From the NCBI RefSeq assembly GCF_016899935.1, contig NZ_JACJJK010000005.1, positions 124,001 to 188,000 on the forward strand: DNA of 64,000 nt. The letters run 5' to 3'. Below the pieces are notes generated by a model. It was not told the DNA's origin, made no database searches, and saw only the letters and a program-made list of their open reading frames with translations. The position numbers were made by a program, and so were the translations under genes. Of the stretch, positions 6,196-58,768 are shown in pieces; positions within the stretch are counted from its first letter, which is position 1; the number at the start of each line of letters is the position of its first letter. The stretch is from Olsenella uli (lineage in GTDB: Bacteria; Actinomycetota; Coriobacteriia; Coriobacteriales; Atopobiaceae).

Positions 6196-6226
6196 CTGTT
6201 AATTGGGGACTGTCCCCAATTAACAG
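6196..6226. repeat. 31-bp palindrome, family A
   Basis: A perfect palindrome with CTGTTAATTGGGGAC arms. It ends three bases before the gldA stop codon (6230-6232). Confidence 0.9.
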
Positions 6227-16744: not shown

Positions 16745-17377
16745 ATGGCAGACACCGAGAAGAACGTGGAAAAGGGACAGTCCCTTTTCCACGGCACCAA
16801 GACCATCCTGCTCGTGGGCGTGGGCGGCCAGGGCACCATCCTCGCCGGCAAGCTGCTCGCGAGTGTGGCCGCCGGCGCGGGCCTCGACGTCAAGGTCTCC
16901 GAGATCCACGGCATGAGCCAGCGCGGCGGGTCCGTGAGCACGGTCATCCGCCTGGGCGAGCACGTGTCCACGATGGTCTGCGACGACGGCTGCGCGGACG
17001 TGATCGTGGCCTTTGAGGCGGTGGAGGCCCTGCGCGCCCAGCACTACCTCGCCGAGGGCGGCCGCATGTTCGTGAACGACGAGGAGATCACGCCCGTCTC
17101 GGTGAACATCGGCAACTTCACGATGCCCGAGCGCGTGGACGAGCGCCTGCGCGAGCTGGGCGCGCACCTGCTCGACGCCGGCGTGATCGCGCGCGGGCTG
17201 GGCTCGCCCCGTTCCACCAACGTGGTCCTCGTGGGCGCGCTCTCCACGGCGCTGCCCTTCGACGCCGAGCTCTGGCGCGACGCTGTGCGCGCCTGCGTGC
17301 CGGCCGCCACGGTGGAGGCCAACCTCGCGGCCTTCGAGGCCGGCCGCGACGCCGCGCTGCGCGGCGAGGCGCGGTAG
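16745..17377 (+). CDS. iorB: Indolepyruvate ferredoxin oxidoreductase, beta subunit
   Basis: 210 residues, gamma-type domain of the 2-oxoacid:ferredoxin oxidoreductases, with ILLVGVGGQGTILAGKLLA and SEIHGMSQRGGSV. The normal N-terminus would start just before KTILLVGVGGQG. Here about 17 extra residues precede it (MADTEKNVEKGQSLFHG). These are encoded by a GAGAAGAAC motif followed directly by a 27-bp palindrome (16767-16793) read in frame. The ATG at 16745 has GAAGGAG, so the extension is probably translated. Catalysis should not be affected, because the nucleotide-fold glycine loop is intact. Confidence 0.94.
   Translation: MADTEKNVEKGQSLFHGTKTILLVGVGGQGTILAGKLLASVAAGAGLDVKVSEIHGMSQRGGSVSTVIRLGEHVSTMVCDDGCADVIVAFEAVEALRAQHYLAEGGRMFVNDEEITPVSVNIGNFTMPERVDERLRELGAHLLDAGVIARGLGSPRSTNVVLVGALSTALPFDAELWRDAVRACVPAATVEANLAAFEAGRDAALRGEAR
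16767..16793. repeat. 27-bp palindrome, family B, inside iorB
   Basis: A perfect palindrome with GTGGAAAAGGGAC arms. It is identical to the copy at 30385-30411. It is read in frame as VEKGQSLFH near the start of iorB. Confidence 0.92.
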
Positions 17378-18129: not shown

Positions 18130-18200
18130 CTGCAAATTGGGGACAGTCCCCGATTTACAGAAAAGTTTTATGTGATTTGGGGACTGTCCCCAATTTGCAG
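18130..18200. repeat. Twin family A palindromes (REPIN-like pair)
   Basis: Two GGGGAC-GTCCCC palindromes (18130-18160 and 18172-18200) are separated by AAAAGTTTTAT. The outermost arms CTGCAAATTGGGG and CCCCAATTTGCAG match each other, so the pair as a whole is also an inverted repeat. It directly precedes selD. Confidence 0.88.
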
Positions 18201-30366: not shown

Positions 30367-30384
30367 CTCTCCTCCTTCGGGAAC

Positions 30385-30411
30385 GTGGAAAAGGGACAGT
30401 CCCTTTTCCAC
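30385..30411. repeat. 27-bp palindrome, family B
   Basis: Identical to the copy inside iorB (16767-16793). It lies 19 bases upstream of the ATPase start, beside the GntR operators. Confidence 0.92.
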
Positions 30412-51814: not shown

Positions 51815-52396
51815 ATGCTGTTCATTCTCACCGGAGGCATCCGAACGGGCAAGACCACGTGGCTCCAGGCGTGTGTGGGCGAGCTCGAGGCGACGGGGGT
51901 TCCCGTGCGCGGCGTGCTCGCGCCGGGCGTCTGGCTCGACGGCGAGAAGCTTGGGATAGAGAACGTGCTGCTGCCCTCGCGCGAGCGCGTCCTTCTCGCC
52001 ACGCCTGTTAATTGGGGACAGTCCCCAATTAACAGATGCGGCTGGGACTTTGACCCGACGGCACTCGCGCACGTGAACGCGCACCTCGCCGAGCTGCGGA
52101 CACGGGCGGACGAGAAGGACGTGCGGCCCGGCCTTCTTGTCATCGACGAGATCGGCCCGCTCGAGCTGCGCTGCGGCGGCGGGCTCACCGCAGGGCTTGA
52201 GCTGCTCGACGCCGGTCCCGCGCCCGCCTGGCCGCACGCGCTCGTCGTCGTGCGCGCGGCACTCGCCGAGGAGGTCGCCGCGCGCCTGCAGGGCGCGTGG
52301 GGCCCCGTCGAGCTCGTCCGACCCGATGAATCGGGCGCCCGCCGCCTGCGCGAGGTTCTTCTCGGCGAGCGATCTTCGCACGGTCCGGAAAATTAG
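51815..52396 (+). CDS. P-loop NTPase with an in-frame palindrome insertion
   Basis: 193 residues. Walker A is LTGGIRTGKTTWLQA and Walker B is LLVIDEIGPLEL, as in the THEP1/NTPase_1 nucleoside-triphosphatases. Between them the peptide VNWGQSPINR is encoded by a perfect 31-bp family A palindrome (52005-52035), inserted without changing frame. The last codons (PEN, stop) come from the first bases of a 91-bp inverted repeat. GGGAGG precedes the ATG. Position between DUF364 and the FecCD importer genes suggests a part in cofactor or metal handling. Activity may or may not survive the insertion. Confidence 0.83.
   Translation: MLFILTGGIRTGKTTWLQACVGELEATGVPVRGVLAPGVWLDGEKLGIENVLLPSRERVLLATPVNWGQSPINRCGWDFDPTALAHVNAHLAELRTRADEKDVRPGLLVIDEIGPLELRCGGGLTAGLELLDAGPAPAWPHALVVVRAALAEEVAARLQGAWGPVELVRPDESGARRLREVLLGERSSHGPEN
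52005..52035. repeat. 31-bp palindrome, family A, inside a coding sequence
   Basis: CTGTTAATTGGGGAC arms, perfect. Read in frame as part of VNWGQSPINR in the P-loop NTPase gene. A GTCCTTCTCG motif lies five bases upstream. Confidence 0.92.
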
Positions 52397-52475
52397 CATA
52401 CACTGGGTTAACGTTTTCAGATAGCCAACTGGGCAAACGTAGCGTACTGGCTTGCCAGTGTATGCTAATTTCCGG
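52385..52475. repeat. 91-bp inverted repeat
   Basis: CCGGAAAATTAGCATACACTGG at 52385-52406 (first 20: CCGGAAAATTAGCATACACT) pairs with 52455-52475 with one gap. The stop codon of the NTPase gene (52394-52396) lies in the left arm. It separates convergent genes and could terminate both. Confidence 0.85.
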
Positions 52476-53612: not shown

Positions 53613-53683
53613 CTGTGAATTGGGGACAGTCCCCAATTCACATAAATTTTTTCTGTTAATTGGGGACTGTCCCCAATTCACAG
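53613..53683. repeat. Twin family A palindromes (REPIN-like pair)
   Basis: Units at 53613-53643 and 53653-53683 are separated by TAAATTTTTT. Outer arms CTGTGAATTGGGG and CCCCAATTCACAG match perfectly. The stop codon of the ATPase gene (53656-53658) lies in the second unit. Confidence 0.9.
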
Positions 53684-58697: not shown

Positions 58698-58768
58698 CTG
58701 TAAATTGGGGACAGTCCCCAATTTACATAAATTATTTCTGTTAATTGGGGACTGTCCCCAATTAACAG
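58698..58768. repeat. Twin family A palindromes (REPIN-like pair)
   Basis: Units at 58698-58726 and 58738-58768 are separated by ATAAATTATTT. A truncated GTCCTTCT motif abuts the left end. The stop codon of the DUF3343 gene (58762-58764) lies in the second unit. Confidence 0.9.

Follow-up and report, generated by a model that had tools for sequence, protein, structure and literature searches.

The window, meaning the whole 64,000-nucleotide stretch of DNA that was analysed, belongs to a 2.1-Mb genome in 131 contigs (G000) from an Olsenella-like bacterium (Coriobacteriia, Actinomycetota). At 51815-52396 on its forward strand lies a gene for a P-loop NTPase of 193 residues that resembles THEP1 and NTPCR. 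The reading frame matches the PF03266 NTPase_1 profile above its cut-off (E 2.4e-11, 44.2 bits, cut-off 23.9) and does not reach the NCBIfam equivalog PRK13695 (32.1 bits versus the 156 needed); in a search with an 18-row profile, human NTPCR (2i3b, E 0.0021) is the sole sequence relative in the PDB at E 0.01. The neighbours of the gene are a DUF364/DUF4213 gene and an ABC uptake cluster, and the surrounding gene order is mostly conserved in the 20 relatives compared. Close orthologues occur on six named contigs, which bear the labels uncultured Atopobiaceae, uncultured Olsenella sp., or Candidatus Olsenella stercoravium. A promoter scan around the gene returned no promoter, and the one terminator-like site is a repeat in the downstream spacer. 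At 52387-52475 lies an element some 88 bp long, bounded at both ends by AATTAGCATACACTGG in inverted order, from which the NTPase gene takes its final codons and its TAG stop; the inner GCCAACTGGGCAAAC of the element is also found 3' of the gene in the related genomes G012 and G024.

Between the Walker A motif (GGIRTGKTT) and the Walker B region (LLVIDE), both labels assigned by reading, the gene contains a perfect 31-bp palindrome with a central A, CTGTTAATTGGGGACAGTCCCCAATTAACAG, at 52005-52035 on the forward strand. Its in-frame translation as VNWGQSPINR, the starting point of the original prediction, is confirmed, and the protein reads across it as TPVNWGQSPINRCGW. An AlphaFold2 model built from seven sequences, a poor one (mean pLDDT 44.7), predicts coil for residues 63-80, flanked by a strand and a helix. 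The 66-nt stretch around the palindrome has a predicted folding energy of -32.1 kcal/mol (z -5.9), equalled by none of 200 shuffles.

The palindrome is one copy of a repeat, family A, with 45 sites in the 2.1-Mb G000 genome (17-mer search, at most 3 mismatches). Perfect palindromes make up 14 of the 45 31-mers, and 28 copies are followed by AAA. Inverted doublets of the BIME/REPIN type, with the two members in opposite orientation, take up 26 of the 45 copies (13 pairs, spaced by 40 nt in nine, 53 nt in three, and 69 nt in one). In the window, single copies at 2717-2747 and 6196-6226 and inverted pairs at 18130-18200 and 58698-58768 were not flagged as coding, and a further inverted pair at 53613-53683 fills the spacer between a substrate-binding-protein gene and an ABC ATPase gene. 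Among the relatives listed, the same spacer holds REP-A in at least six, a single REP-B in at least four others, and no REP in several, at divergences mostly too high for exact junctions to be read from the empty sites. ORF callers extend the binding-protein gene into the repeat at 53613-53683 with the peptide MNWGLSPIHRR. Family A had been expected to lie between genes outside the NTPase, which is true only in part: four of the 45 copies lie inside three genes, namely the NTPase, a U32 peptidase, and a tandem ECF ATPase with two copies in its linker.

A single Y1_Tnp (RAYT) gene is present in G000 (PF01797, E 2.2e-14, NHVH motif), with REP-A directly at both of its ends; a phmmer search of its product against the PDB gave no relative at E 0.01. 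PF01797 genes occur in 28 of the 31 genomes of the genus, 76 in total, and the core WWWNGGGACAGTCCCNWWW is found in 29 of the 31. Judged by these sequence features, the palindrome counts as a REP and belongs to a RAYT (Y1 HUH transposase) system. It falls outside the GTAG superfamily, the tag of classical RAYT substrates being found at 1 of the 45 family-A copies, and also outside the CGTC superfamily, whose members lack a dedicated transposase, with CGTC or its complement near an end in 13 of the 45 copies and a RAYT present.

A tree was built from the RAYT proteins of 75 genes (all of the 76 except L039, from which no ORF was obtained). In it, the 26 rows flanked by a REP of a named family group largely by that family: A in 8 of the 9 rows of its clade, C in 6 of 6, D in 6 of 7, F in 2 of 2, and B in 2 of 4, where the other two rows were unscanned for flanking hairpins. 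The exceptions are L261 and L262 (G015 and G030), which fall in a different clade and are flanked at one end by a hairpin resembling REP-C. Among these 26 labelled rows REP family and RAYT clade thus go together, in a tree where 49 of the 75 rows are unlabelled, families and clades were assigned partly by eye, clade lists and REP states were entered by hand, and three rows on very long branches (L040, L041, and L062) may be wrong ORFs.

The NTPase gene is present in 22 of the 31 genomes, and at the family level in 28 of 140, six of them outside the genus. The loop between the Walker motifs lacks a REP in 15 of the 22 orthologues and holds one in seven (six of family A, one of family C), with the frame preserved in all seven. 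Orthologues that have the same peptide without the palindrome, which would have refuted the original prediction, were sought and none was found; the 15 REP-less proteins lack both. Loop length is 10 residues in 14 REP-less proteins and 11 in one; among carriers it is 12 in G000, G012, G017, G018, and G022, 16 in G025, and 11 in G023. The single loop compared outside the genus (L128) is shorter still. The palindrome is perfect in G000, G017, and G023 and has uncompensated changes in G022 and G012, whereas that of G018 (L071/L014) is chimeric, joining a family-A right arm to a B-like left arm. The G023 loop holds GGTCAAAAGGGGACAGTCCCCTTTTGACC, a family-C sequence of the kind also present in G003 and G004. 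Forward matches to the family-C core number 52 in G023, the highest count of the 31 genomes, and this genome has a C-flanked RAYT.

All seven carriers are draft assemblies, in 30 to 320 contigs, and repeats break assemblies, so that misjoined repeats or a spurious ORF could in principle have produced the pattern. Such an artefact is extremely improbable: G008, a genome in 3 contigs, also has in-frame REPs (family D in U32 and family A in ECF), the REP is present in three of the six named contigs with the gene, and the orthologues are conserved under purifying selection.

A simple insertion of the palindrome into the gene, as first supposed, does not hold. The loop of carriers is only 1, 2, or 6 residues longer than the usual one, and in G000 the codons at 52007-52039 (forward strand) stand in place of a native loop of the A-x-x-G-C-S-T-G-L type seen in REP-less relatives, with the native ACG CCT on the 5' side and GGC TGG on the 3' side retained. 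A nearly clean pair of filled and empty sites comes from the sister genomes G025 and G003, which are only about 1% apart in the NTPase gene when the loop is set aside (branches of 0.0077 and 0.0035). Between CCTG and CCTGGGC, 22 nt in G003 correspond to 40 nt in G025, and the flanks are identical over 47 nt on the 5' side and 52 nt on the 3' side; the loop of G014 is of the G003 type. In a search for a donor of the G025 tail, CAGATGTGCGGACAGCC, the only exact match in the 31 genomes is the sequence itself, and four other genomes have one two-mismatch match each. Near the iorB N-terminus, similarly, 15 native nt of many relatives correspond to a 27-nt REP in seven. As read from these alignments, the REP took the place of native codons as opposed to being plainly inserted, and block replacement of this kind differs from the outcome of plain IS200/IS605-type insertion.

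The NTPase loop is one of four coding positions with REPs. A screen that looked for coding signal to the left and right of REPs, covering the REP-A sites of G000 and two REP-B sites of the window, flagged the NTPase and the U32 peptidase (family-A copy at about 8576-8606 of L097); it missed the first copy of the ECF pair, which lies outside its pattern. The other two positions were found from ORF and Pfam reading: a tandem ECF ABC ATPase of 574 residues (L106), whose linker holds its two family-A copies, and the N-terminal region of iorB (PF01558, gene at 16745-17377), in which a 27-nt REP-B palindrome lies in frame at 16766-16792 on the forward strand. A second copy of the iorB-type 31-bp REP-B unit lies at 30381-30411, in a stretch not flagged as coding.

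The occupants of these slots vary between the genomes of these related gut bacteria. In the U32 linker, 19 of 30 genomes are occupied, by six families: A in five (one degenerate), B in three (one partial), C in four, D in four, E in two, and F in one, with none in 11. The iorB codons that hold REP-B in G000 have REP-D-like sequence in six relatives and no REP in 22 (29 genomes); these D copies were named from their likeness to U32 REP-D and are weak hairpins, one of the six reaching a score of 10. The ECF linker (30 genomes) has a REP-A pair in 11, several of them decayed, other sequences in seven (e.g., REP-B in G007 and another palindrome in G028), and none in 12. In G018 and G022 (L223 and L221) the ECF linker contains a long near-perfect palindrome, in frame, with a hairpin score of 39, and in G015, G011, and G019 (L220, L217, and L226) long inverted arms surround GGGGACGTG in frame, in an unclassified repeat family. 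Complete in-frame inverted pairs of REP-B occupy the U32 linkers L147 and L158 (G020 and G026); in species closely related to these two, the linker has a different family or no REP.

Hairpins are concentrated at the slots. Scores of at least 10 are reached by 18 of 30 U32 linkers versus 9 of 980 flank windows, by 11 of 29 ECF linkers versus 0 of 472, by 6 of 22 NTPase loops versus 6 of 645, and by 2 of 23 iorB ends versus 0 of 808, the flank windows overlapping one another in each case. The ECF count covers 29 of the 30 linkers because that of G001 was unsplit, and the iorB count 23 of the 29 ends, with six short ends omitted.

VNWGQSPINR might confer a selected property on the NTPase, such as a binding loop. 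The frame is kept in every carrier, and G-x-S occurs in the loop of most carriers and also of many non-carriers. The dN/dS of the REP codons, however, which number only 10, is 0.70 in five carriers and 0.41 without the chimera, near the 0.74 of REP-less loops and above the rest of the gene (0.37 and 0.35 in the two carrier sets, 0.39 in the REP-less set). The ECF REP pair likewise has a higher dN/dS than the sequence downstream of it (0.57 versus 0.24, eight species). In addition, the tryptophan is missing in G022, G018, and G023, another REP family fills the slot in one species, and the frame in which REPs are read differs among genes (VNWGQSPI, SIGDSPQL, and CELGTVPN). Functional recruitment of the peptide is accordingly very unlikely. 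The proposal that a mobile palindrome had been recruited as coding sequence, by analogy with Rickettsia, keeps its first part, the in-frame coding, while a useful peptide finds no support in these loop-like rates. By the dN/dS comparison the NTPase is constrained and the REP codons evolve approximately like a loop; purifying selection on the non-REP part (0.35-0.39) suggests that the gene is in use. With frames and peptides that vary and a constraint no greater than that of loops, the REP-encoded peptide looks like a tolerated, recurrently overwritten spacer.

The REP could also be selected as an RNA or DNA element, for example an mRNA hairpin or a gyrase or RAYT site, and be coding only incidentally. 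This is quite unlikely. The hairpin is highly stable, the palindromes of three NTPase carriers are perfect as noted above, and, among the genomes scored, the ECF REP-A hairpin reaches at least 13 in 5 of the 6 that have an A-RAYT and in 2 of the 4 that lack one; yet one arm is lost in G018, the changes in G022 and G012 are uncompensated, and 15 of 22 NTPase orthologues do without the REP altogether.

The preferred explanation, considered probable, is that REPs of a RAYT system active now or recently recurrently land in and overwrite tolerant coding slots and are kept only when in frame. The minimum number of state changes on a tree of the 31 genomes is 14 for U32, 12 for ECF, five for iorB, and four for the NTPase; the tree was built from concatenated flanks without the slots, and 10 of its 31 rows have less than half of the columns. 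A single clade of the seven NTPase carriers is rejected (AU p 1.5e-69), as is one of the six family-A carriers (1.4e-63) and, more weakly, one of the five without G025 (0.006), in tests whose groups were picked after the data were seen and whose one-tree assumption is violated by recombination.

Recombination is itself the basis of a competing explanation, in which one or two old insertions in the NTPase loop were spread and lost by homologous exchange between species, without recurrent landing. Just 3' of the NTPase gene, G025 (L075) is identical to G014 over 300 columns, 67 of which set it apart from its sister G003. Homologous import thus takes place near the gene, and the competing explanation gains weight from it. 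As judged from the alignment, the stretch downstream of the G025 gene is a recent import or exchange, and recombination between species at this locus explains part of the patchiness. CAGATG or CAGGTG directly 3' of the palindrome is common to G025 and the G000 group, nearly identical REPs lie in the SBP-ABC spacers of G025 and G008, and the NTPase of G013 also has a mosaic look. In G013 (L025 and L082) the branch is 0.048 for the NTPase versus 0.006 for the flanking genes, which suggests a mosaic gene. Against spread from old insertions stand the different REP family and 3' junction of G023, the six families that fill one U32 linker, and the G003-identical flanks of the G025 slot, between which an imported tract would be very short. 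Spread of old insertions without recurrent landing is therefore held to be rather unlikely.

Recurrent landing also receives support from the RAYTs themselves. Over all slots, a cognate RAYT is present for 32 of 43 occupied cells versus 71 of 512 others (odds ratio 18, Fisher p 5e-17, uncorrected for kinship); families E, G, H, and I (8 site-genome cells), which have no assignable RAYT, are omitted. Broken down by slot and family, and comparing occupied with unoccupied genomes, a cognate RAYT is found in 6/6 versus 2/16 for NTPase-A (p 3.8e-4), 1/1 versus 4/21 for NTPase-C (p 0.23), 6/6 versus 1/23 for iorB-D (p 1.5e-5), 0/1 versus 4/28 for iorB-B, 7/11 versus 2/19 for ECF-A (p 0.004), and 0/1 versus 4/29 for ECF-B. 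For the U32 linker the figures are 4/5 versus 5/25 for family A (p 0.019), 1/3 versus 3/27 for B (p 0.36), 2/4 versus 4/26 for C (p 0.17), 4/4 versus 3/26 for D (p 0.0013), and 1/1 versus 0/29 for F (p 0.033). Counting against the preferred explanation are the missing GTAG tag, the block replacement, and the 11 of 43 occupied cells without a cognate RAYT, which include iorB-B of G000, 2 of 4 U32-C, and 4 of 11 ECF-A. Phylogenetically independent pairs number 1-5 per slot and family, so few that 0.05 is out of reach for any individual test. When the slots are added up, the RAYT goes in the same direction in about 14.6 pairs and in the opposite one in 0.8, the rest having no difference. The REP family in a slot tends to match the RAYT lineages of its genome.

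The proposed course of events would be as follows. A REP would land in one of the slots (the Walker A-B loop of the NTPase, the U32 linker, the linker of the tandem ECF ATPase, or the N-terminus of IorB), placed there, we infer, by RAYT activity itself. The incoming REP would replace native codons, and survivors would be those with the frame kept and no stop. Later, the slot might receive a new REP family, lose its REP, be altered by interspecies recombination, or decay to ordinary coding sequence, a fate that would depend in part on the RAYT carried by the species. Because GTAG is absent, the RAYTs of the genus must recognise something else, perhaps the GGGACAG core common to the families, and replacement may proceed through this core, by template switching or single-strand cleavage, as opposed to fresh insertion plus deletion. 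Exchange at the core would account for the G018 chimera and for switches of family in the same slot. In its strongest form the slots would be docking sites at which RAYTs overwrite the resident REP in cassette fashion, with the half-A, half-B palindrome of G018 caught midway through an exchange; this is possible, though somewhat doubtful. Fresh insertion in a tolerant slot, combined with selection on length and some interspecies exchange, would also suffice.

Several elements of this picture are familiar. Rickettsia palindromic elements are translated in frame in unrelated proteins, and, compared by description, the NTPase REP is like them in being an in-frame palindrome in a coding gene that is missing from 15 of 22 orthologues; unlike them, it is RAYT-linked, family-switching, and found in Actinomycetota. 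Di Nocera et al. (2013) describe intragenic GTAG/CGTC REPs that are translated in known genes of many species, propose that linkers and loops are tolerant, and report one case, recB, in which two Xanthomonas carry different REPs at nearly the same position (PMC3733652). Translation within genes and the use of tolerant linkers and loops are shared with the REPs described here. As far as the portion of that account consulted goes, the differences are that the Olsenella-like REPs are without the GTAG tag (1 of 45), that many families share a coding slot within one genus, in several genes and linked to RAYT lineage, and that native codons are replaced in a near-identical pair.

The abundance of a REP class is known to track its cognate RAYT, with copies decaying when the RAYT is absent, and in a proposed "orthoswitch" new REP classes may partly supplant old ones (PMC3686654). 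In the parts of that work drawn on here, the evidence comprises copy numbers and RAYT-flanking REPs, whereas the present turnover is at orthologous coding positions. The TnpAREP of E. coli is an HUH enzyme that cleaves at CT beside a single-stranded REP hairpin and needs GTAG, and the spread of REPs is described as poorly understood (PMC8266576). The substrates presented in the sections of that study used here carry GTAG, whereas the Olsenella-like RAYTs are known here from sequence alone. No paper on REPs in Coriobacteria or Olsenella was found in the open-access library searched. Intragenic REPs, Rickettsia palindromic elements, and RAYT-REP coupling are already known; with respect to the open-access library searched, the new element is repeated family replacement at fixed in-frame slots, at several orthologous slots of one genus and tied to RAYTs, as read from comparisons of sequence.

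The empty, filled, switched, and decayed slots of close relatives, including the nearly clean G025/G003 pair, provide orthologous before-and-after pairs for the arrival of REPs. Peptides derived from REPs should not be taken for conserved motifs. The slots also show mobile palindromes repeatedly providing loops and linkers of conserved enzymes.
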